From positions 1,293,501-1,357,500 of the forward strand of contig NZ_CP160680.1 of assembly GCF_040784935.1 (NCBI RefSeq): a DNA stretch of 64,000 bases, in the 5' to 3' direction. Below are positions 5,701 through 62,180 of the stretch, in pieces. The DNA comes from Lewinella sp. LCG006. Lineage in GTDB: Bacteria; Bacteroidota; Bacteroidia; Chitinophagales; Saprospiraceae. The stretch's first letter is position 1. The number at the start of each line of letters is the position of its first letter. The notes beneath the pieces are model-generated. The model saw only the letters and a program-made list of their open reading frames with translations. It made no database searches and was not told the DNA's origin. Position numbers and translations under genes: made by a program.

Positions 5701-7554
5701 GGGTGTTAAAAACGAAGTTTCAGTAAGATTCATCCCCGAACCAATGATATTGGTAAAGTTGGGATCTGTAGCAATTTCCACATCGTAACTCTCCACAAGT
5801 GGCTGTCCCATCCAGGTAAGCAATAAACCCGTAAACTGATCAACAGCCATATCTATAGGGCTCAGTAAAGTTGTTGCAGCAGGGGTTCCTGAAAGAATGG
5901 TCAGGGTGAGGGTCTGGTTGCTCACGTTGGTGCCATCGGTACCGTTGAGTACAAAGGAATAAACACCCTCGGGAAGGTTCTCGGTGCCGGTGATCGTCAT
6001 TTGCGTGCCTTCTCCGGGATTGACTATTGTTTCGTCAAAAACAGCGGTCAGCCCTATTGGAAGATTGACCAAGGTCAGGTTAACAGGGCCAAAAAAGTTT
6101 TCATTTACGCTGATATCGTAGGTAGCGGTTGATGGCGCACATAGCGTTTGTACCGCAGGAGTAGCTCCAGCGAAGAAGCTGCACTGAAGCTGGGCACGAC
6201 CAGGAATTTCCAGTACACCGGTATTGTCTGGATCCAGCCAATCGCGTAAGCGCGTACTGGGAGTCCCGCCTCCTTCCCAGGAAGTAAAGAACCAACCATA
6301 ACTATCGTAGGAGTCGTTGTTGCAAGATGCGGCACCACCATGTAGCTGGCCAATGACTTGCTTGTTGCTATTAAAAATAGGAGAGCCTGAAGAACCTCCT
6401 TCGGTGGTACCAATGTCCCAATCTTCAATGATGAGGTGGTTGCCATCAGGAACAGGTGTAGCACCCGAACCCCAATTACCCGTATAAACGCCATCAAACT
6501 CAAAGCTAATGCGCTTTTCGTCGGTGCTAGGGTGATGAATCCCGATAATTGTATCCTGCGCTAATACTTCGCGCGCATCCCAACCGGCAAACCAGGCGTC
6601 TGCTGTTTCGGAAACAGGATCGTCGAGCTCTACCAGGGTCATGTCGGAAGGTGCATAAGCAGCACGGAAAATTGATCCCGTATTGAAATCAGCAAGGCTA
6701 CCATCGCCATTGCCACCGCTGGCAGGTGAGCCGGGTTGGCGACAGACGCTGTTGATATAATTCCAATACACCACCAAACTAGGGGCGTTGCCATTGTTTA
6801 TCCCACAGTGATTGGCCGTCATAAAGAAAGGGGCACAATCCTGGCGAGCATTGCTCACCAGGAAACCAGTACAAAAAGTCCCACCTCCGGTAGAGATCAC
6901 CCCAACCGACTGGATAATATCTCGGTAATTATCCACGATACCCCAGCCGTCGGCAGCTCCACAAACAACATCCAGGTTACAAGAACCCGAAAGAACGCTA
7001 GAAGCAATATCACCAAAACCAAGAAAATCATGGTTAACGGATTTCAGATGAAGCCTTAGCTCGCTCTGTCGAGCCGCAGGTAGGCTCACTTCAATGACCA
7101 GCTCATCGCCGGGGATGACTGGTGTCCATAGCTCTTCGTGGTCTTCGTTATCAGCAGGCGTAAATGGGCCTTGCACCAACGAACCATCCGGGGTATAGAG
7201 CATCAGCTGCCCGCCAGGAGGCATCCGGTACTGATCGAAACCAAAATTGATGGACTTGGCCCCCGGCGAAGGTACCCGCAGTCGCCAAACGGCCGTACCA
7301 TTGGCCACTTCCCAGGTACCATGTGTATTGGGCGACACATTGACTTCAATGGTTTCCGCAAAACGAGGAGCCCGCCCTGGTGCGCGACGTGCTTGTTCGG
7401 CTTGTAATAATTCCTTATTGTCGAGCCTAGGTAGTTGTAATTGTTCAACTTCACTAAGCGGCGTAGATGTTGCTGCTAAATTTTGTGCGGCGAGGCCATT
7501 GAGCGTAAGGCATACCGTTGATAGCAGCAAAAGCATAGTAAAAAGCTTTTGCAT
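2701..7554 (-). CDS. Secreted trypsin-like serine protease with two P domains and T9SS anchor
   Basis: A 1617-residue exported protein. The start at 7554 (MQKLFTMLLLLSTVCL...) gives a clean signal peptide ending near LAAQN; an upstream ATG at 7596 would add 14 polar residues. The protease domain has the chymotrypsin-fold triad: H249 in TANHCG, D304 in SDMTLVEL and S389 in GGSSGSP, resembling lysyl-endopeptidase-type enzymes of Bacteroidota. After it come Ig-like and fibronectin-III-like segments and two closely similar proprotein-convertase P domains (each with SSNHT.MGDLNATL and STFVGEEA.GLWTLTI). A T9SS type A sorting domain (EIWPNPTTGPVQISL...) ends the protein. It probably degrades extracellular proteins and is released or anchored at the surface. 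It is monocistronic, with its own terminator. Confidence 0.9.
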   Translation of the reverse strand: MQKLFTMLLLLSTVCLTLNGLAAQNLAATSTPLSEVEQLQLPRLDNKELLQAEQARRAPGRAPRFAETIEVNVSPNTHGTWEVANGTAVWRLRVPSPGAKSINFGFDQYRMPPGGQLMLYTPDGSLVQGPFTPADNEDHEELWTPVIPGDELVIEVSLPAARQSELRLHLKSVNHDFLGFGDIASSVLSGSCNLDVVCGAADGWGIVDNYRDIIQSVGVISTGGGTFCTGFLVSNARQDCAPFFMTANHCGINNGNAPSLVVYWNYINSVCRQPGSPASGGNGDGSLADFNTGSIFRAAYAPSDMTLVELDDPVSETADAWFAGWDAREVLAQDTIIGIHHPSTDEKRISFEFDGVYTGNWGSGATPVPDGNHLIIEDWDIGTTEGGSSGSPIFNSNKQVIGQLHGGAASCNNDSYDSYGWFFTSWEGGGTPSTRLRDWLDPDNTGVLEIPGRAQLQCSFFAGATPAVQTLCAPSTATYDISVNENFFGPVNLTLVNLPIGLTAVFDETIVNPGEGTQMTITGTENLPEGVYSFVLNGTDGTNVSNQTLTLTILSGTPAATTLLSPIDMAVDQFTGLLLTWMGQPLVESYDVEIATDPNFTNIIGSGMNLTETSFLTPNLDILTDYYWRVRSANICGDGAWSAAFQFTTAAVSCAINTAATEGITIGPNNGTITTSTLMIAQTGEILDLRLTNLSSNHTWMGDLNATLTSPSGTVINLFNRPSCNQQGILASFADDATATAADFVGTCNGGGIAIQGEFQPAQPFSTFVGEEASGLWTLTIVDNANQDGGDLLGWNLEICTLVTSEIALTPSTDELGTCVGDFAVVDLTIGNGFEGPVSLSASNLPNGAVVDFEANPAMPGSTITVTFSSLTTDGNFNIILDGTDGTNESTQGLSLTVLAGAPAGATLLSPTDMAVDELTSVLLTWVPEPLGVDYDVEIATDPAFTNIVGMGMNLTETSFQTPELEIQTNYYWRVRATNICGEGAWSAAFQFTTIAITCAINTASTEGVTIGPANGTITTSTLMVNQMGAIQEVSLSNLSSNHTYMGDLNATLTSPTGTVITLFNRPNCNQGGILANFSDDATDTAADFQATCNGGGIAIQGDFQPAQPFSTFVGEEANGLWTLTIVDNADADAGNLFGWNLDICTLAPSEVILVPSTNVVSACNGGFGIFDLTIGTGFNGPVTLSASNLPGGATVDFETNPVIPGSTITVTFNNLTSNGNFNISLQGTDGNETAIAMLNLQVVGTPGTPVLNAPANGAVDVNLSTLLQWTPLASATGYVMTLSTNPDLSNPVLVFPALNPSVATGLLMYNTTYYWQVVGENDCGTGNASPIFSFTTSPDITVATGQPTLNSCLADQTTATFTLGEGFGDQLSVSVNANPAADFSGFTSSFAAGSRVLSLVWNNFLGIAPGTYVLSVTITGEGYSNVGQVTVNVETAPTLSALQVPANTAEVPGGTPVDFSWTAVAGADNYQIEIATDDTFTDVLVNETVNGTTYATSLAIGQYYWRVAAVNDCGESLSGFFVFTVVESNAVLELAGTRLEIWPNPTTGPVQISLSAELNDDLFVDVISVQGQQLRHVRLSALSGRYQLDLSDLPAGAYLLRLQSGKAQTTARIMVQ

Positions 7555-10649: not shown

Positions 10650-11849
10650 TCAATACGACCACTTCACCCTTAAGAAAACCGCCTGCAAAGGGCTACGATA
10701 CCCCTCTGCCTCCTGGTCAAAAACGAGCTGGCCCACCGCATCCAGGCTCCAATTTCCTGCGATCGAAACCGCCACGGTAGGATTGAGGAAAAGCGCATGG
10801 CTAGCTACCGGACTGTAGATGCTCGTAAGCCCCGCATTCACCAGCGGAGAGACGGGGTAAGAAAGGCTCACAAAGCTGGCCCAGCGGTAAGGATAGAGAT
10901 TGCGGGCTGAGAGTTCGAAGGTAAATAATTGGAGGATACCGCCCTCCTTTTGGCCCTCGCTGTTGTAGAGGCCACCGGCGTTGAGGTACAAGCCTTTTTC
11001 GAAAGCGTAATCAATGTTGGCAGTTACGGCCAAGCTGCTCTTATCGGTTTCGGGCGCATAAAACCAGCTGGCTTCGCCTTTGAATCCAGCATTTTTGAGG
11101 TTACCTGCCCAACCTGTGCCGAGTACCCAATGGTCTTGTGCATAACCGCCAATGAACTGCAGATCGTAGCCACCGGTATTGACGACCCAACGCCCGGCCA
11201 GAATGCTTTCCTCTAAACGATCACCAGCCCGGGCGGCCAGTTCCAGACTACCGGTGTAGCCTGTATAGTAGCGCACCCTCACGGCGTCAGCTCCCGGGCG
11301 TTCTTCGTAATCAAAGTCAGTAAAGGAATAGGCATTGAAGATATCATTAGGGTTCCAAACGGTGCTAATGCCCCAGTTTACGCGCTGTCGACCCAATCGT
11401 ATCTCCCAACTTTCTTTCGTGTACTCTCCGTAGAAACGATCAAGGACGGTATGGCCTATTAGTTGGCTATTGTCCAGCCAAAGGACATCCAGGTTGAGCC
11501 AATCATTGCTGCCAGAAGAGATTTGCTCGCCGTATTGCGGGTTGGATTTGACGACATCGCCGTAGAACAATCGGGTTCTCAAGCCTCCATGTACTCGCCA
11601 GTGTTCGCCGTGCGCCCATTCAATATTTAGCCGATGATGAAAAAAATTATCCAGTAACAAGGTATCCGTCCCTTGAAAGCTGGGCGGTGCCAGAAAGGAA
11701 GCGTTGAAAAAATTAAAACTTTGCAACTGCTTCACGTAACCGGAGAACAACCACGAATTGGCCTTCTCCTCTTCCTGGCCTAGCAACAAGGTGCTACTTA
11801 AAAGAAGTATTCCGGAAAAGAGAAGTATTTTATTGATTGGAATACGCAT
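10650..11849 (-). CDS. Outer-membrane beta-barrel protein of the TetR/ABC operon
   Basis: 399 residues with a signal peptide (about 1-24, ending LLLGQE). Alternating aromatic/polar strands are typical of an outer-membrane barrel, ending in a C-terminal aromatic residue (VKWSY). The segment RLGRQRVNWGISTVWNPNDIFNAYSF resembles DUF1302-type barrels, in which R-x-G-R-Q-x-x-x-W-G is a recurring signature. Its start lies one base after the stop of the ATPase gene, so it is the last gene of a six-gene operon. The context (LolA-like chaperone plus LolCDE-like ABC complex) suggests it is the outer-membrane acceptor or exit for the lipid or lipoprotein handled by the operon. Confidence 0.75.
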   Translation of the reverse strand: MRIPINKILLFSGILLLSSTLLLGQEEEKANSWLFSGYVKQLQSFNFFNASFLAPPSFQGTDTLLLDNFFHHRLNIEWAHGEHWRVHGGLRTRLFYGDVVKSNPQYGEQISSGSNDWLNLDVLWLDNSQLIGHTVLDRFYGEYTKESWEIRLGRQRVNWGISTVWNPNDIFNAYSFTDFDYEERPGADAVRVRYYTGYTGSLELAARAGDRLEESILAGRWVVNTGGYDLQFIGGYAQDHWVLGTGWAGNLKNAGFKGEASWFYAPETDKSSLAVTANIDYAFEKGLYLNAGGLYNSEGQKEGGILQLFTFELSARNLYPYRWASFVSLSYPVSPLVNAGLTSIYSPVASHALFLNPTVAVSIAGNWSLDAVGQLVFDQEAEGYRSPLQAVFLRVKWSY

Positions 11850-54264: not shown

Positions 54265-54945
54265 TTAAGAATGGCTTAAGATACGAGCTTGTTGCATTTG
54301 TGCTAAACGGTGCTGTACATCCTGCTGATGGCGCAACTGAGTAGGTGCATCTCCGAAGACACCGGGTTCCGTTTTTTTGATGGCCTGCTTAGGCAAGGCA
54401 TAGAAGACGCCACCATCCACCCGCTGGATAATCCCCTTCACCGGATCGTAGATGCGAGCATCTCCCGTGACGTTTTCAATGGCTTCAGGGAAACCGTAGA
54501 CGTGCAAACTCAGAAAGGGCTGCTGGGTAGGATTACCCATCTGGTGAATCAAGTCGTGGCCAACAGGAACAATATCCCCCGGCTGTACCTGCCAACGGGC
54601 AGTAGTACGCAACTGCTGCTGACGAACCCGGAAGGTAGCGTGCTCGGCCTGCCCGAAGATTTGTACGGCCCCCCACTGGGTGTGACCGTGATCGTGGATG
54701 GCCGAAAAATCACCTGGCAACCAGGACATGACCATCACTTCAAAATTAGGCCCCCGCGCTACGAGTTGACGACCATAGCTGTCGGCTGGAGAATGATGAA
54801 AGTCGGCATAGGCTACTAAGTCTTGCGCTTTAACATCGGCTGACTTGACAAGCTGTACGATGCTGCGCGGATCTAATCTTTTCGCAACTTTTAATGTAGC
54901 TACAATGTATTTAAGAGAAGTCGGTAATGGCGGGGCGTTCAACAT
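54265..54945 (-). CDS. Cysteine dioxygenase-like cupin
   Basis: 226 residues. The cupin iron-site motif is H84-x-H86 (AIHDHGHTQWGAVQIFG) with a third ligand probably H134 (GHDLIHQMGN). This is the 3-His layout of cysteine dioxygenase, which adds O2 to thiols, making cysteine sulfinate in the model enzymes. The crosslinking Cys of mammalian enzymes is not apparent, as in many bacterial homologues. A thiol other than cysteine is possible. It is divergent from the thioredoxin-YeeE operon and shares a GTGA-N6-TCAC palindrome with it, supporting a role in sulfur metabolism. Confidence 0.82.
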   Translation of the reverse strand: MLNAPPLPTSLKYIVATLKVAKRLDPRSIVQLVKSADVKAQDLVAYADFHHSPADSYGRQLVARGPNFEVMVMSWLPGDFSAIHDHGHTQWGAVQIFGQAEHATFRVRQQQLRTTARWQVQPGDIVPVGHDLIHQMGNPTQQPFLSLHVYGFPEAIENVTGDARIYDPVKGIIQRVDGGVFYALPKQAIKKTEPGVFGDAPTQLRHQQDVQHRLAQMQQARILSHS

Positions 54946-54975: not shown

Positions 54976-54983
54976 CAAAGTTC
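54976..54983 (-). promoter_or_regulatory. -7 element of the cysteine-dioxygenase-like gene
   Basis: Reads GAACTTTG on the - strand (nAnnTTTG). Its first base, 54983, is 29.5 bases from the centre of the palindrome at 55006-55019, the same distance as in the divergent promoter. Confidence 0.55.
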
Positions 54984-55005
54984 TTCCTCTTTACGGAATA
55001 GGACT

Positions 55006-55019
55006 GTGACGTACATCAC
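55006..55019. promoter_or_regulatory. Candidate Crp/Fnr-type operator serving two divergent promoters
   Basis: GTGACGTACATCAC: inverted half-sites GTGA and TCAC with a 6-base spacer, the Crp pattern. It is centred 29.5 bases from the -7 element on each side, equal to about -42 from either start site (class II position). A near-identical site, 11 of 14 bases, precedes sulP. The Crp/Fnr protein at 58136-58786 is the likely binder. Confidence 0.7.
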
Positions 55020-55041
55020 CAACTGTTGTATTCACCGGCCT

Positions 55042-55049
55042 TAATTTTG
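55042..55049 (+). promoter_or_regulatory. -7 element of the thioredoxin-YeeE-porin operon
   Basis: TAATTTTG matches TAnnTTTG exactly and is followed by GCATTGCAAAA, which resembles the bases after the sulP -7 element. The predicted start site is about 10-15 bases before the ATG at 55068. Confidence 0.6.
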
Positions 55050-55067
55050 CATTGCAAAACAAATGCT

Positions 55068-55280
55068 ATGTCAGACTTTATCAATGACTGGAAAATGGTG
55101 ATACTCGCCTGCTTACTGCTAGGCTTGGCACCTTTCTATCCTGAACCCCACCTGTTTGGAAAGCTCCGCTGGTTGGCTGGTGGTGCCAAAGGGATGGCGA
55201 TGATGGACTGGTTTGACTTGGTTTGGCACGGCTGGCCTTGGGTGCTACTCTTGCGTCTGGCTATTAAATCTGTAAAATAA
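55068..55280 (+). CDS. Small membrane protein of the sulfur operon
   Basis: 70 residues: [20 protein letters not shown]... starts a membrane helix (about 8-24), followed by a Gly/Trp-rich segment and a second hydrophobic stretch (about 52-64, [13 protein letters not shown]). ATG at 55068 is preferred because the promoter -7 element lies at 55042-55049, inside the longer in-frame extension. No known function. First gene of the operon, seven bases before the thioredoxin gene, so a link to thiol or YeeE transport is inferred. Confidence 0.75.
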
Positions 55281-55287
55281 CTCCCAA

Positions 55288-55599
55288 ATGAGTAATAAAA
55301 AATCTTTCAAAGAGCTGATCAACAGCGAGCAGCCAGTTTTAGTGGATTTTTCTGCTGAGTGGTGTGGCCCTTGTAAAGCCATGGCTCCAATTCTCAAAGA
55401 AGTAGCCGCTGAAGCGGGTGAAAAAGCTAAAATCATCAAGATTGATGTGGATAAAAATCCTGCACTGGCGAACCAGTTGGGGATTCGAGGGGTGCCTACT
55501 TTTATTTTATACCAAAATGGTGAAATAAAATGGCGCCAGTCGGGCATGCAGTCCGCTACTGCTTTACTGAACGTAATTAACCAGGCAACTACAGCCTAA
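55288..55599 (+). CDS. trxA: Thioredoxin
   Basis: 103 residues, no signal peptide, complete thioredoxin fold with the active site W25-C-G-P-C29 and the cis-proline in [12 protein letters not shown] cytoplasmic reductant. Its place in an operon with YeeE/YedE sulfur transporters suggests it reduces imported thiosulfate or a persulfide rather than being the housekeeping thioredoxin. Confidence 0.95.
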
Positions 55600-55626
55600 T
55601 AGAAATCTTAGACTAACTACTTTCCA

Positions 55627-56214
55627 ATGATTGCATTTGTAACTTTCACGTCCTCCTTCCTGGACCTTATTCGCCAACCTTGGCACTGGTCGGTTTCAGG
55701 AGTGGCGATCGCATCCATCTTGTTTTTGATGACCTGGATGGGGCGCAGTTTTGGTGTTTCTACGGCTTTTCGCAACTTCTGTACGATGGCGGGTGCGGGG
55801 AAACGCCATTCTTTTTTTGATGTAGACCTCAAAGACGAAAGCTGGCGAATGGCCTTTGTGCTTGGGTCTGTCTTGGGTGGTTTTATTGCTGTTTACTTTT
55901 TGGGGAGCCCCGAAGCAGTAGCTATTTCTGAAAGCACCGTTAGCCATCTTAAAGAAGATTTCGGGATGAACTATCCTCAGGGTCACGGCTATTTGCCGGC
56001 GGAGCTTTTCAATTTTTCCAACCCTAAAGGAATCATCCTGGCCATTATTGGCGGCTTTCTGGTGGGTTTTGGGGCGCGTTATGGCCGGGGGTGTACTTCG
56101 GGGCACGCGATCACCGGGCTTTCACACCTTCAGCTTCCTTCACTTATCACCGTTATCGGCTTCTTTATTGGAGGCTTGTTGATGACTTGGGTGATTATGC
56201 CTTTGATCTTTTAA
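55627..56214 (+). CDS. YeeE/YedE-family sulfur transporter, N-terminal half type
   Basis: 195 residues with four to five hydrophobic helices. The signature GFGARYGRGCTSGHAITGLSHL carries the conserved cysteine of the YeeE/YedE (TsuA) family, which conducts thiosulfate across the membrane by relaying it along cysteines. In this organism, as in many others, the transporter is split into two genes; the second half follows 23 bases downstream. A cytoplasmic domain lies around residues 57-76 (GKRHSFFDVDLKDESW). Confidence 0.9.
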   Translation: MIAFVTFTSSFLDLIRQPWHWSVSGVAIASILFLMTWMGRSFGVSTAFRNFCTMAGAGKRHSFFDVDLKDESWRMAFVLGSVLGGFIAVYFLGSPEAVAISESTVSHLKEDFGMNYPQGHGYLPAELFNFSNPKGIILAIIGGFLVGFGARYGRGCTSGHAITGLSHLQLPSLITVIGFFIGGLLMTWVIMPLIF

Positions 56215-56237
56215 AGAACAGCACAAAACAACTACAG

Positions 56238-56654
56238 ATGAAACAATTCATATCCTTTTTTACGGTAGGAACGGTCTTTGGCATCATTATGACCAAGTCG
56301 GAGGCCGTATCCTGGTTTCGTATTCACGAAATGTTCCGTTTCGAGAGTTTTCACATGTACGGCATTATTGGTACTGCTGTGGTGCTGGGAGCCATCATTA
56401 TTGCTTTGATGAAACGCTTTAAGGTGAAAACCTTGCGAAATACTTTTGTTGACTATATGCCGATGCAACTGCACATTCCCCGCCATTTGCTTGCAGGCAG
56501 CATCTTTGGCCTGGGGTGGGCTTTGATGGGGGCTTGCCCAGGCCCAATGTTTGTACTGCTTGGGCAAGGTTTTGGTATCATGGCACTCGTTATTCTAAGT
56601 GGCACACTGGGTACTTATACCTATGGTGTCGTAAAAGATAAGTTGCCTCATTAA
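56238..56654 (+). CDS. YeeE/YedE-family sulfur transporter, C-terminal half type
   Basis: 138 residues, four hydrophobic helices. The signature FGLGWALMGACPGPMFVLLGQG supplies the matching conserved Cys of the second half of YeeE/YedE. ATG at 56238 is chosen; upstream in-frame codons overlap the first-half gene. The two proteins probably assemble into one thiosulfate-type (or related sulfur anion) channel. Confidence 0.9.
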   Translation: MKQFISFFTVGTVFGIIMTKSEAVSWFRIHEMFRFESFHMYGIIGTAVVLGAIIIALMKRFKVKTLRNTFVDYMPMQLHIPRHLLAGSIFGLGWALMGACPGPMFVLLGQGFGIMALVILSGTLGTYTYGVVKDKLPH

Positions 56655-56677
56655 TTTTTGAACATCTTCCTCGATTT

Positions 56678-57946
56678 ATGCCTCATCTACGGTTTTTAGT
56701 AATCACCTTGATTTTTACAGTTGTTTCCGCGAATGCTCAAACTTCTGAGACGTCCAACCCTCCGCTGTGGAAACAGGTAAAAGTAAATCCCATTGCTGCG
56801 ATGCAAGTGTGGACAACTTATACGATGGGAGCAGAAGTATACCGCTCCGACGAGGCTAAGTACGAGGCCGTAGATGATCGGCTCAATTTTCAACTCCGCC
56901 GTTCCCGGTTTGGTTTCAAAGGCGATGTGGGGGATCGGGTGAAGTTTAATTTCACGGTAGCGGCTGATTTGGTTGGACGGGATGTATTGGCTGGTACCGA
57001 TGGTGGTGCCAACAATGGAGCTTCTCCTCAAGTTCGTTTGTGGAATGCTTACGTACAATGGCGCCTGAGTCCGGAAAGCGAAAAACTTTACTTGGTTACG
57101 GGGTATCAGGTACCTCAAATTGGTCGCGAGAGTATCACTTCTGCCTTGCGGAGCAGCTCCCTGGAGAAAGCCTGGGTACAAAACTATCTGCGCAGGCATT
57201 TGGTAGGTACCGGGCCGGGCCGGGCGGTAGGGGTGAATGTTGGTGGTTTGTTATTACATGAAAAATTGTCTTGGGGTTATGATATTGGGGTTTTCAACCC
57301 GGCAATGAATGCAAATAGCGGCAACTCGGTAGGAGAAGTTTATTCCCCACTGCTTACGGGGCGTTTAGTGACTTACCTTGGAGACCCCGAATCAAAATCT
57401 TACACCACCGATCACAAGCTCAATTATTTTGGCCAGCGCCGGGGACTGAGTCTTGCCTTAGAAGGTGCCTGGCAAGCGAAAGGAGATGCTTTTCAGGACA
57501 ATTATGGCTACGGGTTCGACTTTCTGGGCGATTATGACGGATGGAGTTTGGATGGAGAGTACATGGTACTGGGGCGTCGTGGTGAGGAAGCTATTGCTAC
57601 CTCCGCACAAACCGCTTACCTACGTATGAGTTATACTTTTGAACTTGGTGAATACTGGCTGGAGCCCAGCGGGATGTTGGCGCAGTTGAGTGGACCTGTT
57701 TCCGCAGAGGATCAAGCTGCTGCCGCTACGCTGTCTGCCTTCGCGGGTGAAGAAAGCGTGGTAGACCTTGGCGGTAACTTCTATTTCACCCCCAACCTGA
57801 AGCTAAGCCTGCACTATACTTTCCGGAAAGGAGACGCTGGCGCAGCAGGACCTGGGGCTACCGTGAATAATTATTTTTTCCAAAGCGGTGTAGGGCCTAT
57901 CTTGCGAGGAGATTGGCTGGGCCTGGGCTTGGTGGCAATTATGTAA
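56678..57946 (+). CDS. Outer-membrane porin, phosphate-selective porin O/P type
   Basis: 422 residues, signal peptide ending VSANAQ, then a beta-barrel of the OprO/OprP group (RLNFQLRRSRFGFKGDVGDRVKFNFTVAADL near residue 70 is the typical N-terminal region; GYQVPQIGRESITSALRSSSLEKAWVQNYL follows). These porins favour anions. As the last gene of the YeeE operon it plausibly admits sulfur oxyanions across the outer membrane. Confidence 0.85.
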   Translation: MPHLRFLVITLIFTVVSANAQTSETSNPPLWKQVKVNPIAAMQVWTTYTMGAEVYRSDEAKYEAVDDRLNFQLRRSRFGFKGDVGDRVKFNFTVAADLVGRDVLAGTDGGANNGASPQVRLWNAYVQWRLSPESEKLYLVTGYQVPQIGRESITSALRSSSLEKAWVQNYLRRHLVGTGPGRAVGVNVGGLLLHEKLSWGYDIGVFNPAMNANSGNSVGEVYSPLLTGRLVTYLGDPESKSYTTDHKLNYFGQRRGLSLALEGAWQAKGDAFQDNYGYGFDFLGDYDGWSLDGEYMVLGRRGEEAIATSAQTAYLRMSYTFELGEYWLEPSGMLAQLSGPVSAEDQAAAATLSAFAGEESVVDLGGNFYFTPNLKLSLHYTFRKGDAGAAGPGATVNNYFFQSGVGPILRGDWLGLGLVAIM

Positions 57947-57995
57947 TGGCTTGTAGCTTTTGAAATTGCGGGTTTAAGCTTGGTACGTTGAGCTT

Positions 57996-58100
57996 TTTGG
58001 GTGGCGCTCGTCCCAAAGCCTCAGGACGGCTTACCGCCGACGCAGTCGGCACCACCGTGATCCCGACGAAAGTCGGGAGAACATCACCGCGAGCACTAGC
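57996..58100. repeat. Palindromic repeat element upstream of the Crp/Fnr gene
   Basis: Contains GCCGAC-GCA-GTCGGC (58036-58050) and TCCCGAC-GAAA-GTCGGGA (58061-58078), the latter with a GAAA tetraloop. Its complement shares the string TTCTCCCGA...TCGGGAT and CGGTnGTG with the copies at 26041-26695. It occupies most of the 190-bp gap between porin and regulator genes. Confidence 0.65.
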
Positions 58101-58135
58101 AAACTTAATCCCTTAAATAAAAAACCAATAGCATC

Positions 58136-58786
58136 ATGACTTTTGAAACCGGAGATATCAGTACGATCTTACACCAGCATTTTCCACAAATTGCAGAACG
58201 GGAGCTACAGGCGGAGGTAGCCGAAGTGGGCCAATTGATGCATTTTCGGGCAGGTGAAGTCATCATGGACTACGGCAGCTACATCAAAATGGTTCCCCTG
58301 ATTATCAAAGGAAGTATTCGGGTCACTAAAGAAGATGATCTTGATGGAAGAGAAATATTGCTCTACTTTCTCAGTGGTGGCGATACCTGTTCTATGTCCT
58401 TCAGTTGCTGCATGATGAATAAAAAAAGCATGATCAGGACGGAGGCAGTGGAAGATACCACCATGATCGGCATCCCCATCAAATACGTCGACCAGTGGAT
58501 GAGCAAATACCAGAGCTGGAAAAATTTTGTCATGCTCAGCTACGACAACCGCCTCATCGAGTTGGTGAAAGTCATCGATAGTATTGCTTTCAATAATATG
58601 GATCAGCGCTTACAGGAATACCTTACGGCCCGCCGAGAAGCAACCGGCAATGCCCTTATTGAGGCGACTCACCAGGAGATAGCCAATGACCTCAATGCCT
58701 CTCGCGAAGCCATCTCCCGCCTGTTGAAGAAAATGGAAAACCTGGGCAAAGTAGAACTCGGGCGCAACCAGGTGAGGTTGTTGTAG
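58136..58786 (+). CDS. Crp/Fnr-family transcriptional regulator
   Basis: 216 residues: N-terminal cyclic-nucleotide-binding-type barrel (about 20-120), long dimer helix (120-160) and C-terminal winged helix (165-216). The recognition helix S189-R190-E191-A-I-S-R195 has the R-E-xxx-R spacing by which E. coli Crp reads GTGA. The effector barrel lacks the usual cAMP-binding RxS pattern but has a cysteine group C85, C91, C92 (DTCSMSFSCCMM), suggesting a thiol or redox signal. It sits between the YeeE operon and sulP, both of which have a GTGA-N6-TCAC site. Confidence 0.92.
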   Translation: MTFETGDISTILHQHFPQIAERELQAEVAEVGQLMHFRAGEVIMDYGSYIKMVPLIIKGSIRVTKEDDLDGREILLYFLSGGDTCSMSFSCCMMNKKSMIRTEAVEDTTMIGIPIKYVDQWMSKYQSWKNFVMLSYDNRLIELVKVIDSIAFNNMDQRLQEYLTARREATGNALIEATHQEIANDLNASREAISRLLKKMENLGKVELGRNQVRLL

Positions 58787-58859
58787 GTACTTGTTACTGC
58801 GCATTTCTACCTCATGCTTGACTATCCCTGAAATACGTTGACAACAAATTTAGTTAAAA

Positions 58860-59267
58860 ATGAAGTCAACGAATAAGGTTAATCGGCCCAAAAGGCGTCG
58901 TAATTACAGTGAAACCTTTAAAAAAGCGCGAGTTAAGGACTATGAAGAAGGTACCTTTAGCGTGGCCCAGATAGGTCGTTTATACAGCATCCATGTAAAT
59001 ATTCTGTACCGCTGGATAAGTAAGTACAGCTCGTACGATCAACAAAAAGCGATAATAGTGGAAGTACCAAATTCCCAGACGGAGAAGGTTAAATTGCTGG
59101 AAAAGCGGGTGGCTGAACTAGAACGTTCTCTAGGTCAAAAACAAATTAAATTGGACTACTATGAGAGCTTTATAGAGGAGCTTCGTGAAGCAGGAATAGA
59201 TGTTGAAAAAAAAAGTGGTTTTACGACTCCCTTGTCCGGCTCTTGTCGAAATACAGATCAGAAATGA
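58860..59267 (+). CDS. IS3-family transposase OrfA
   Basis: 135 residues. N-terminal helix-turn-helix (YSETFKKARVKDYEEGTFSVAQIGRLYSIHVNILYRWISKY, about 15-55) and a leucine-zipper coiled coil (KVKLLEKRVAELERSLGQKQ). It binds the element's ends and probably regulates transposition. An A9 run at 59206-59214 allows a -1 shift into OrfB; unshifted translation stops at 59267. Confidence 0.9.
   Translation: MKSTNKVNRPKRRRNYSETFKKARVKDYEEGTFSVAQIGRLYSIHVNILYRWISKYSSYDQQKAIIVEVPNSQTEKVKLLEKRVAELERSLGQKQIKLDYYESFIEELREAGIDVEKKSGFTTPLSGSCRNTDQK
59206..59214 (+). promoter_or_regulatory. Programmed -1 frameshift site
   Basis: Nine A residues in the orfA frame (GAA AAA AAA AGT). The orfB frame is open from immediately after a TGA at 59204-59206, so slippage by -1 on this run makes an OrfAB fusion reading ...KWFYDSLVRLLSKYRSEM.... 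This is the standard way IS3 elements make active transposase. Confidence 0.8.
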
Positions 59268-60265
59268 AGAGTCCAAGTAATGAACAAGTATATGCTGCAC
59301 TAGGTACTTCGCGTCAATCGCTGTCGCAATATTTACGTCGGCGAGCGGATTATCAGGACGGGGTGTATTCAGCGGAAGCAATGCTGTTGACACACCGTGC
59401 AGATCACGGAGGTTTGGGTCTTGAAAAGGCCTACTATATGATCCAGCCAGAAGGACTAGGTCGCGATGCATTTATTCGAGAGATGACTCTATTGGGTCAT
59501 TCGCTGGAACGAAAAAGGAGCTATGTTAGAACTACGAAGAGTGGTGGTTTACGGTATCCTAATTTAGTTAAGTTGCTTACTATCATAGGTTTAAACCGAG
59601 TTTGGCAATCGGATACGACTTACTATCGCCTAGAGGACAAGTATTACTATCTGACGTTTATCATAGATGTGTATTCCCGGCTTATAGTGGGCTATAGCGT
59701 AAGTGATAACCTCCGAGCTAGAGCAAACATAGAGGCTCTGAAAATGGCCTTTCGTTTGCGTCGTGGTATGGATTTGAGTGAACTGATCTTCCACAGTGAC
59801 GGGGGCTCCCAGTATCGCAGCAATGACTTTATAGAAGTATTGAGGTCACGAGGAATCAGTTCTAGCATGTGCATTACAGCATTGGACAATGCGTACGCAG
59901 AGAAGCTCAATGATGTGATCAAGAATGAATACCTTGAGCACTGGCCAATCAGAGATTATAGAGCACTGAGAAGGTACGTGAAGAGGGCTGTAGAGAACTA
60001 CAACAAAGTGCGTCACCATAGTCAGTTACCGCTGCGAATTGCACCTTTGGGATTTGAATGTTATCTTGAGGAGAGTAAGGGGCAAAGACCACCATCGTTG
60101 TTGATACGAGACGGCGAAGCAAAAGAGTTGGAATACCAGCCAATGGCGGCTCAGAATCTGACTTATCCCAGTAGCGGAGCTTTTGATGGGACAAGTCAGA
60201 TTCTGCCCGCATTTGTTAAGCTTGGTTTGCCAAAAGAAGATGGACAACTAGCACTCAGCTTTTAA
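59243..60265 (+). CDS. IS3-family transposase OrfB (integrase core)
   Basis: 340 residues as counted from a TTG at 59243, but more likely made as an OrfAB fusion by frameshift. The DDE catalytic residues are D124 (WQSDTTY), D186 (FHSDGGSQY) and E220 (DNAYAEKLN), in an rve integrase core. The frame is intact, so the element may still be active. Confidence 0.92.
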   Translation: MSKYRSEMKSPSNEQVYAALGTSRQSLSQYLRRRADYQDGVYSAEAMLLTHRADHGGLGLEKAYYMIQPEGLGRDAFIREMTLLGHSLERKRSYVRTTKSGGLRYPNLVKLLTIIGLNRVWQSDTTYYRLEDKYYYLTFIIDVYSRLIVGYSVSDNLRARANIEALKMAFRLRRGMDLSELIFHSDGGSQYRSNDFIEVLRSRGISSSMCITALDNAYAEKLNDVIKNEYLEHWPIRDYRALRRYVKRAVENYNKVRHHSQLPLRIAPLGFECYLEESKGQRPPSLLIRDGEAKELEYQPMAAQNLTYPSSGAFDGTSQILPAFVKLGLPKEDGQLALSF

Positions 60266-60373
60266 GTAGAATGATTGATAAACCTGTCAACGTTATTTAG
60301 GGAAGGTCAGCTGGTCGCTATACATCTGTCCCTATACCATCTACCAACTTTACTATGGGCAAAGCCCAACTAA

Positions 60374-60417
60374 GTGATACACATCACTGATTGCTTAGAG
60401 GAGTTTGCTCACCTTTG
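60374..60417 (+). promoter_or_regulatory. Candidate Crp/Fnr operator and -7 element of sulP
   Basis: GTGATACACATCAC (60374-60387) lies within the longer perfect palindrome AGTGAT-ACAC-ATCACT. CACCTTTG (60410-60417) is an nAnnTTTG element whose first base is 29.5 from the palindrome centre, identical to the two promoters at 54976-55049. The following bases GCACTTGTAAAA also resemble GCATTGCAAAA of the thioredoxin operon promoter. Confidence 0.7.
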
Positions 60418-60446: not shown

Positions 60447-62180
60447 ATGTCCTTGAATGCATTTATTCCTTCCCTTTCCTGGTTGAAAAATTATTCTAAA
60501 GACCAATTGAAAGGTGATCTTTCAGCGGGTCTTACCGTCGGCGTAATGCTGATTCCCCAGGGGATGGCTTACGCAATGATTGCGGGCCTACCGCCTATTT
60601 ATGGTCTTTATGCGAGTACCTTGCCGCTCATCATTTACGCCTTGTTGGGTACTTCACGCCAATTGGCGGTGGGCCCGGTAGCGATGGTATCTTTATTGAC
60701 CGCCGCAGGGATTGGTGTCTTGGCCGAAGGAGGCACTGAAGCTTACATCGCCATGGCCATCACTTTGGCCTTTTTGGTGGGGATCATTCAGTTTTTACTC
60801 GGCATATTTCGTTTGGGTTTTCTCGTCAATTTTCTTTCCCATCCGGTGATTAGCGGTTTTACTTCGGCGGCAGCCCTGATCATTGGACTGAGCCAGCTCA
60901 AGCACTTACTTGGAGTAAGCCTCGAGCGGAGCCACTATGTTCACGAAATCATACTGGAAGCGCTAGGACAACTAGGGTCAATCAACTGGGCGACTTTCAG
61001 CATCGGGATAGGAGGAATCGTACTGATCATGGGCGTGAAAAAAATCAATAAAGCCATCCCCGGACCATTGCTGGCGGTACTCTTCGGTATTTTAGCCGTT
61101 TGGGGATTGGGGCTCGTAGACCAGGGCGTAAAAATCGTAGGGACAGTTCCCGAAGGCTTACCTTCTTTGGGCTTACCAGATTTTAACCTGACGACAATTC
61201 AGTCCTTACTTCCGATTGCATTGGCGATTTCTTTAGTGAGTTTTATGGAAAGTATTGCGGTAGCTAAAGCCATTCAAGCGAAACACAAAAATTATAAAGT
61301 CTTACCCAACCAGGAACTGATCGCACTTGGATTATCCAATGTAGGTGGATCTTTCATTCAAGCTTATCCGGTTACCGGAGGGTTTTCGCGCACGGCAGTC
61401 AATGATCAGGCGGGTGCAAAAACAGGCATGGCTTCCATCATTAGTGCTTTACTGATCGTCACCACCTTGTTGTTTCTGACGCCACTGTTCTACTATCTCC
61501 CCAATGCGATTCTGGCTTCGGTTATCATGGTCGCTGTTTTTGGGTTGATCGACTACAAAGAAGCAATTCATCTCTGGCGTGCAGATCGTTCTGACTTTTG
61601 GATGCTGATCATTACTTTTATTGCCACACTTAGTCTGGGAATTGAGCAAGGCATTGGTGTAGGGGTCATCTTATCACTGGCAATGATCATTTTTGAAACC
61701 ACTCGCCCCCATATCGCTCAGTTGGGTAAAGTACCAGGAACGCATTTTTATCGCAACCGGGAGCGCTTCGGACAAGTAGAAATTCGTAAGGATTTACTCA
61801 TCGTTCGCTTTGATGCGCAGCTATATTTTGCCAATCTCAATGTTTTCCGTGAACGGATCGACGAATGGATGGCAGCAAAAGGCCCCGGCCTAGAGGCACT
61901 TATCATCAATGCGGAAAGCATCAATACCCTCGATAGTAGTGCCTTGCATCTACTGGAAGACCTTTTGGAAGACTTGAAAGCACGAAATTGCCAACTCCTA
62001 TTTACAGGCGTTAAAGGCCCCGTTCGAGATGCCCTCGTAAAAGGGCACCTGGTGGCCAAAATTGGAGAAGACAACTTCTTTATGAGCGTCCAAGAGGCCG
62101 TCGATGCCCACGATGAACGTAAGACAACAAAAGGTGCAGGCAACGTGTACAAGGAATTTACCTTGCAAACGAACGTGTGA
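60447..62180 (+). CDS. SulP-family inorganic anion transporter
   Basis: 577 residues: a membrane domain of about 14 helices (about 15-410), with the signature LTVGVMLIPQGMAYAMIAGLPPIYGLYAS, and a C-terminal STAS domain (about 440-555, LIINAESINTLDSSALHLLEDL). SulP proteins move sulfate, bicarbonate or other anions, commonly with Na+ or H+. Given the regulatory site it shares with the sulfur operon, sulfate or a related sulfur anion is the best guess; bicarbonate is the alternative, and a gamma-carbonic-anhydrase-like gene lies convergently downstream. Confidence 0.9.
   Translation: MSLNAFIPSLSWLKNYSKDQLKGDLSAGLTVGVMLIPQGMAYAMIAGLPPIYGLYASTLPLIIYALLGTSRQLAVGPVAMVSLLTAAGIGVLAEGGTEAYIAMAITLAFLVGIIQFLLGIFRLGFLVNFLSHPVISGFTSAAALIIGLSQLKHLLGVSLERSHYVHEIILEALGQLGSINWATFSIGIGGIVLIMGVKKINKAIPGPLLAVLFGILAVWGLGLVDQGVKIVGTVPEGLPSLGLPDFNLTTIQSLLPIALAISLVSFMESIAVAKAIQAKHKNYKVLPNQELIALGLSNVGGSFIQAYPVTGGFSRTAVNDQAGAKTGMASIISALLIVTTLLFLTPLFYYLPNAILASVIMVAVFGLIDYKEAIHLWRADRSDFWMLIITFIATLSLGIEQGIGVGVILSLAMIIFETTRPHIAQLGKVPGTHFYRNRERFGQVEIRKDLLIVRFDAQLYFANLNVFRERIDEWMAAKGPGLEALIINAESINTLDSSALHLLEDLLEDLKARNCQLLFTGVKGPVRDALVKGHLVAKIGEDNFFMSVQEAVDAHDERKTTKGAGNVYKEFTLQTNV

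Follow-up and report, generated by a model that had tools for sequence, protein, structure and literature searches.

Which protein controls the sulfur genes of this locus, from which sites does it act, and what does it sense? The question arises in a 64,000-nucleotide stretch of Lewinella sp. LCG006 DNA (contig NZ_CP160680.1, positions 1,293,501 to 1,357,500; here called the window, whose own coordinates are used), in which the gene of a Crp/Fnr-family regulator stands among a cysteine-dioxygenase-like gene, a divergent transporter operon and a sulP gene. A preliminary description of this DNA had proposed that a GTGA-N6-TCAC palindrome lies at one fixed distance from the -7 elements of three promoters and that the regulator activates the uptake and oxidation of sulfur compounds as one unit; it suggested a genome scan at that spacing and a comparison of orthologous upstream regions as checks. 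At the level of sequence, the operator geometry, its conservation, the content of the regulon, a Glu/Val covariation and the conservation of cysteines are demonstrated below. The protein is very probably a class II-type activator of a Bacteroidota sulfide/persulfide regulon, with Cys85 and Cys91/Cys92 as its likely switch.

Operator geometry in the window and in related genomes

Bacteroidota promoters have the -7 consensus TAnnTTTG, and in class II Crp promoters the operator centre lies 29.5 bases before the -10/-7 element. Both palindromes of the window were located at the positions proposed for them (55006-55019 and 60374-60387), and a scripted scan found a gap of exactly 22 bases between palindrome and nAnnTTTG at all three promoters. 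This reproduced the 29.5 bases from the palindrome centre to the first base of the -7 element in all three directions, which is the fixed distance of class II promoters. The elements concerned are as follows.

55006..55019, no strand: operator 1, GTGACGTACATCAC, common to two divergent promoters
54976..54983, minus strand: -7 element GAACTTTG of the cysteine-dioxygenase-like gene, 22 bases from operator 1
55042..55049, plus strand: -7 element TAATTTTG of the membrane-protein/thioredoxin/YeeE/YedE/porin operon, 22 bases from operator 1
60374..60387, no strand: operator 2, GTGATACACATCAC, upstream of sulP
60410..60417, plus strand: -7 element CACCTTTG of sulP, 22 bases from operator 2
58136..58786, plus strand: Crp/Fnr-family regulator, HTH_Crp_2, with C85, C91 and C92 in the cassette region and an R190-E191-R195 recognition helix

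A search of public genomes for the regulator yielded 16 loci, and on comparison of orthologous upstream regions the palindromes recur, most completely in the nearest clusters and with fewer sites in others. In Lewinella cohaerens (L011) palindrome and 22-base gap are retained at all three promoters: the orthologue of operator 1 lies at 6967-6980, with 22-base gaps both ways, and operator 2 is identical (10907-10920). The regulator of L. cohaerens DSM 23179 has 97% identity to that of the window. L012 also has three sites, one between the cysteine dioxygenase and thioredoxin genes (the operator 1 orthologue, 7154-7167, again with 22-base gaps both ways), one before sulP, and one before a dioxygenase-type gene with TTTG at the right offset and the A of nAnn missing; GAACTTTG was found at the identical gap in both L011 and L012. 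L017 has one site, upstream of crp-sulP-porin, and L013 has two, the first upstream of the membrane-protein operon and the second, with a gap of 23, upstream of a dioxygenase-type gene. Of 198 genomes sampled from the phylum, 55 have a homologue of the regulator with an E-value of 1e-40 or better; a Flavobacteriia query at 1e-35 finds one in 170 of 295 genomes of the class, and a threshold of 1e-20, which admits paralogues, gives 65 of 80 family genomes. Judged by sequence, the regulator and its predicted operators, at a near-fixed distance from sulfur-gene starts, recur across a large bacterial group.

Spacing between palindrome and -7 element

Spacing was counted in 53 regulator-centred loci of 878 kilobases (kb) in all, made up of the 16 public-genome loci and 40 family-genome stretches minus three duplicates (L013, L015 and L017, which duplicate L111, L119 and L131). 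We took the offset as the number of bases from GTGA-N6-TCAC to TTTG and counted offsets 0 to 59 for 58 palindromes, that is, 116 oriented sites. TTTG stood at offset 26 in 45 of the 116 and at offset 27 in 5, with at most 4 at any other offset; 43 of the 58 palindromes had a correctly spaced TTTG on at least one side and 7 had it on both.

Controls with the reversed pattern gave far lower counts when the spacing was held narrow. At a gap of 22-23 bases, the 80 family genomes gave 228 matches against 27 in the control; 181 against 14 came from the 35 genomes whose best regulator match had an E-value of ~7e-62 or better, and 47 against 13 from the remaining 45. A gap of 23 bases occurs beside the gap of 22. 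In the window's own genome the full pattern with a gap of 18-26 gave 10 matches and its control 2, and a wide gap of 11-41 to TTTG gave 43 matches listed and 32 in the control. The wide scan had offset 27 ten times, offset 26 five times including the sulP site, and any other offset at most twice; the sulP site had been entered there under a nearer TTTG, and offset 26 counts four without it.

The half-site follows residue 191

The recognition-helix residues R190, E191 and R195 are present in the window regulator as the preliminary description had read them. To a covariation set of 120 loci from the class Bacteroidia, with 123 regulators (76 Glu and 44 Val loci; L293 and L294, the own genome and a duplicate, left out, and L016 not included), we applied a scan of all 256 four-base half-sites at the same spacing. 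R190 and R195 occur in all 123 homologues, and residue 191 is Glu in 79 and Val in 44, with no third residue. At the 76 Glu loci GTGA ranks first with 62/158 (expected 3.6), and GTAA has 3/44; at the 44 Val loci GTAA ranks first with 30/138 (expected 3.1), and GTGA has 1/8. Residue 191 and half-site type agree in 62 of the 64 scorable rows. Loci with a single site type divide into 33 Glu/GTGA, 2 Glu/GTAA, 26 Val/GTAA and 0 Val/GTGA, and Fisher's test gives 6e-16 on the 64 rows with relatedness ignored, some rows coming from one locus or being near-copies (the L022 and L025 regulators are identical). The -7 elements behind both site types have the expected TA: 56 Glu-clade sites chosen only for TTTG at offset 26 have T in 64% and A in 80%, and 30 Val-clade sites have T in 86% and A in 93% at the TA of TAnnTTTG.

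No GTGA site was found in the nine Flavobacteriia loci L018-L026, all of which have Val191. A failure of conservation was rejected as the explanation once an open half-site scan gave GTAA: 11 Val-type loci had GTAA at 11/74 (expected 1.5), every one as GTAAC-N4-GTTAC, although a single palindrome, counted in both orientations, accounts for two of these 11, and two stem from loci whose regulators are identical. The opposite change is apparent inside a Val clade, where L298, L371 and L378 seem to have reverted from Val to Glu and have GTGACNAAAGTCAC; their Val relatives have GTAAC-N4-GTTAC. Moreover, among Val-type genomes with GTGA matches, 5 of 9 have a second, Glu-type homologue (G350, G269, G119, G330, G164), against 1 of 10 Val-type genomes without such matches (G285). 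In G350 the Glu-type homologue and a GTGA site in front of YgaP-TM, YeeE and YedE genes are ~20 bases apart.

In E. coli CRP, according to an excerpt of PMC11253593, Glu181 contacts the C of the G4:C4 pair in T1G2T3G4A5 and Arg180 and Arg185 contact guanines. The cytosine contacted by Glu181 is in the very base pair that differs between GTGA and GTAA. Glu181-to-Val mutants of E. coli CRP reportedly accept GTAA. The covariation supports, indirectly, the pairing of this regulator with these sites.

Genes behind the sites

Downstream genes were non-random in function when the spacing was fixed. At 41 Glu-type regulator loci, the first gene behind 50 correctly spaced sites belonged to the sulfur cluster in 37 cases, was another gene in 5 and was lacking in 8; behind 64 wrongly spaced sites the corresponding counts were 3, 9 and 52. 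Frequent downstream genes encode metallo-beta-lactamase/rhodanese proteins of the persulfide-dioxygenase type, rhodaneses, SulP, YeeE/YedE, thioredoxin, cysteine-dioxygenase-like proteins and the regulator itself, the commonest targets being the dioxygenase-type and rhodanese proteins and the sulfur transporters. FA_hydroxylase-like and YgaP-like membrane proteins, cytochrome bd, peroxiredoxin, TauE and SQR-like proteins are further recurrent members. At 20 sites in genomes whose orthologue is borderline, distant or absent (G054 and G042 being the borderline bearers), 4 preceded core genes, 1 an extended one, 7 others and 8 none.

The scan of the window's own genome added two dioxygenase-type genes and one DUF983 gene. 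The first of these, at C1:1405594 (L036), encodes a metallo-beta-lactamase/rhodanese protein and has TTTG at offset 26 with no A at nAnn; a second metallo-beta-lactamase/rhodanese gene lies behind a site at C1:1177237 (L002), and the DUF983 gene behind one at C1:690752 (L001), both with offset 27. The L036 protein combines Lactamase_B with two rhodanese stretches, the make-up of a CstB/PRF-type dioxygenase, and matches the solved structures 3tp9 and 3r2u best (the latter presumably CstB), with BpPRF 5ve3 and ETHE1 4chl lower. All three promoters of the preliminary description stand, and the unit reaches well beyond them; the bias of the sites towards sulfur genes upholds a sulfur-compound unit, for which sulfide/persulfide (sulfane-sulfur) handling is a better description than uptake and oxidation. 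A relative of the DUF983 gene was also seen within the cluster of L131 (the same as L017).

Five of the ten own-genome matches with a gap of 18-26 precede the cysteine-dioxygenase-like gene, the membrane-protein operon, sulP, a dioxygenase-type gene or the DUF983 gene, and the remaining five (L006-L010) stand before other genes or before nothing notable and are not explained as sulfur genes. L008 (C1:6184874) lies before a hemN-like gene and L010 (C1:7176815) before a feoAB-like unit, each with GTGA-N6-TCAC and TTTG at offset 27; these two apparently belong to a second Crp-type regulon. GTGA-type sites also adjoin a ~30%-identical Crp clade in several genomes, and this more distant paralogue appears, by its neighbouring sites, to use a similar GTGAC-N4-GTCAC operator, so that not every genome match belongs to the present regulator. 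The assignment of all genome matches to it was rejected, since the hemN-like and feoAB-like sites and that clade look like a second regulon. A one-mismatch scan of the own genome gave 9 matches against 3 in the control and brought two new ones, L401 (C1:4429407) and L402 (C1:5601672), good palindromes with TTTA for TTTG. Their downstream proteins resemble, by eye, the FA_hydroxylase and YgaP-TM types, families recurrent behind sites elsewhere; both are plausible regulon members and were kept out of the firm counts.

The regulator protein and its cysteines

By profile and fold, the regulator belongs to the Crp/Fnr superfamily in both domains. It has a C-terminal Crp-type winged helix-turn-helix (PF13545, 35.9 bits against a cut-off of 27; PF00325, 24 against 21) and an N-terminal cyclic-nucleotide-binding-like beta-roll that scores slightly below cut-off (PF00027, 25.1 bits against 27.5). 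The AlphaFold2 (AF2) model has a predicted local distance difference test (pLDDT) score of 83.9 and a predicted template modelling (TM) score (pTM) of 0.63, and matches CRP/FNR structures, with 3dv8 first (TM 0.57) and 4ev0 at TM 0.71.

The protein does not look like a cAMP-dependent CRP: it scores 39 bits against the 266-bit cut-off of the CRP equivalog PRK11753, and the cAMP cassette of Vfr is not retained in the alignment, where cysteines stand instead. C85, C91 and C92 are the only cysteines of the window regulator and all lie in the cassette region. The oxygen sensor FNR has four cysteines for its [4Fe-4S] cluster, a set that the window regulator lacks. All 123 homologues have C85, 115 have C91 and 99 have C92. 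Adjoining pairs of regulator paralogues were seen at L134 (9206-10529) and L135 (9060-10603), one member with the full cysteine motif and the other with C85 and without C91/C92.

Proposed mechanism and its alternatives

We infer dimerization, binding, activation and the signal from these features, and propose the following. A homodimer of the 58136-58786 protein would bind GTGA-N6-TCAC with its centre 29.5 (sometimes 30.5) bases upstream of TAnnTTTG, so that the operator stands where class II operators do, replacing a -33 element, and the protein would recruit RNA polymerase from there. The persulfide-dioxygenase-type proteins and rhodaneses would convert sulfane sulfur, and YeeE/YedE, SulP and the porin (TauE in Flavobacteriia) would move sulfur anions; thioredoxin and the cysteine-dioxygenase-like enzyme would belong to the same regulon, joined in some genomes by an SQR-like protein, cytochrome bd and peroxiredoxin. 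Sulfur chemistry on Cys85, with Cys91/Cys92 taking part, is the likely switch, in the segment that holds the ligand in cAMP-CRP; since cysteines occupy the cassette and dioxygenase-type genes are the commonest target, sulfane sulfur seems the likeliest signal. We give about even chances to a wider proposal, that the subfamily, spread over Bacteroidota, is a dedicated persulfide sensor built on Cys85-x5-Cys91-Cys92 in a former cyclic-nucleotide cassette, and one in which Glu and Val have toggled several times to yield GTGA and GTAA sulfur regulons, sometimes in one cell, as an evolved, single-residue insulation of parallel lines.

Several counts weigh against the activator and its pairing with these sites. 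GTAA sites occur in 2 of 38 scorable Glu rows (L369, L397), and two rows that carry both site types (L129, L279) were left out of the Fisher table. No site appears in the stretch covered at 40 of the 76 Glu loci and at 17 of the 44 Val loci; for 28 of the 120 loci this stretch extends no further than 1.5 kb to either side. The tree has 4-5 changes of the Glu/Val label, so independent events are few, and the 2-3 independent pairs with scorable sites, although concordant in nearly all random pairings, are too few for a sign test. Four Val-type genomes (G278, G243, G270, G371) have GTGA matches and no Glu-type homologue at the threshold used, and 24 of the 123 homologues lack C92. Among the matches listed for orthologue-bearing genomes, the 100 distinct sites that lie away from the regulator regions comprised 32 before core genes, 7 before extended ones (families that were themselves chosen from such sites), 24 before another gene, 30 with no nearby gene start and 7 cut by an end. 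Only 32 core and 7 extended of the 63 sites with a gene start fit and 24 precede other genes, counts that stand without a genome-wide background rate for the families.

The alternative that survives best accepts the sites and changes the signal: oxygen, nitric oxide or general redox state would be sensed, for example through a metal or Fe-S centre on the cysteines, and the sulfur genes would be one output. Cytochrome bd genes and peroxiredoxins behind some sites would suit this, as would the similar sites before hemN-like and feoAB-like genes, perhaps by way of the distant paralogue, but the window protein has three cysteines against the four of FNR, and dioxygenase-type proteins, rhodaneses and sulfur transporters make up the most frequent targets; we regard it as possible and rather unlikely. 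It is quite improbable that the regulator is a repressor at these promoters, as the persulfide sensors CstR and SqrR/BigR are in the portion of PMC9774590 consulted, because a repressor does not need the exact distance to the -7 element seen here (45 sites at offset 26 against 5 at offset 27), and this distance is the position used by class II activators. That another Crp/Fnr paralogue of the genome reads the sites in place of the 58136 protein is very doubtful: the more distant Crp clade does have GTGA-type sites adjoining its own genes, but the half-site follows residue 191 of the local regulator throughout the scorable rows, save two, and sites adjoin and precede the regulator gene in several genomes. 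Chance as the origin of the three window matches has next to no probability and was ruled out by the spacing counts and reversed-pattern controls, for although the GTGA-N6-TCAC palindrome is frequent by itself and TTTG is missing from offsets 26 and 27 at 66 of the 116 oriented sites, the exact spacing, the functional bias and the excess over control in the 80 family genomes all argue against it.

Genes of the window cluster

The gene identities given in the preliminary description were borne out by profile matches (CDO_I, thioredoxin, Sulf_transp-type halves, Porin_O_P, HTH_Crp_2 and Sulfate_transp+STAS). Besides the regulator, the cluster consists of:

54265..54945, minus strand: cysteine-dioxygenase-like cupin, 226 residues, CDO_I PF05995 E 1.7e-7
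55068..55280, plus strand: small membrane-like protein, 70 residues, no Pfam or NCBIfam match
55288..55599, plus strand: thioredoxin, TIGR01068 above cut-off
55627..56214, plus strand: YeeE/YedE half 1 (Sulf_transp), PF04143 E 1.3e-16
56238..56654, plus strand: YeeE/YedE half 2 (DUF6691/Sulf_transp), PF20398 above cut-off and PF04143 just below
56678..57946, plus strand: outer-membrane porin, Porin_O_P, PF07396 E 1.5e-12
58860-60265: IS3-like element of two genes (HTH_Tnp_1 protein and rve integrase protein), between crp and sulP
60447..62180, plus strand: SulP-family anion transporter with STAS domain, TIGR00815 above cut-off, Sulfate_transp+STAS

The cupin aligns with the solved bacterial cysteine dioxygenases 4qm8 and 3eqe and retains the HDH and later His residues, and half 1 of YeeE/YedE matches the TsuA model partially, with a score far under the model cut-off. 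The 70-residue membrane-like protein has relatives in L011 (94%) and L013 (74%), and relatives of it were found repeatedly behind the operator in several genomes. The IS3-like genes are not present in L. cohaerens L011, where crp and sulP are adjacent and the sulP operator is identical; in the window, sulP has its own operator 3' of the IS3-like element genes.

Significance and comparison with known systems

The proposal offers a possible account of the control of sulfide/persulfide detoxification in a phylum that is prominent in the environment and in the gut. It also puts on offer a natural recognition code, Glu to GTGA and Val to GTAA at one residue, some genomes having regulators of both types. 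The fixed activator geometry could serve to predict regulons on Bacteroidota promoters. Neither a paper on this regulator nor a description of a dedicated Crp-type sulfur sensor was found in the portions consulted of the open-licence literature searched, in which the term 'Crp/Fnr' is not searchable with its slash.

The regulator resembles cAMP-CRP of E. coli and Vfr in its fold, in the R-E-x-x-x-R helix for GTGA-N6-TCAC and in the 29.5-base operator distance; unlike them, it has cysteines where the cassette is not retained, and its promoters are of the Bacteroidota TAnnTTTG type. CstR, SqrR/BigR and FisR are among the persulfide-responsive regulators, with sensing by cysteines, as the consulted part of PMC9774590 has it. 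They control sulfide-oxidation/persulfide genes, as the window regulator is predicted to do, but belong to the CsoR, ArsR and sigma54-activator families, whose folds were not found in the window regulator, its Pfam and fold matches being Crp/Fnr; MarR-, OxyR- and other families also appear among persulfide-responsive regulators in a literature search listing. An excerpt of PMC7315123 describes control of yeeE-yedE-pdo2 by BigR in Acinetobacter, and a Crp of Acinetobacter baumannii that is persulfidated at a cysteine opposite the ligand pocket, with unknown effect. That protein is a Crp modified by persulfide, as the window regulator may be, but it is near E. coli Crp/Vfr and is no dedicated sulfur regulator. 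The CstB/PRF-type persulfide dioxygenases, by domain make-up the likely counterparts of the own-genome target gene product, compare with targets and not with the regulator. The nearest solved sequence is the putative Crp/Fnr protein of Eubacterium rectale (PDB 3dv8, E 5e-16), also the first fold match by E-value, whose cysteines align with C85 and C91 of the window regulator and which has Ile at the position of C92. E. rectale belongs to another phylum. With cysteines in both of these places, 3dv8 hints at a broader class of cysteine-bearing Crp proteins, and the motif may not be confined to Bacteroidota.

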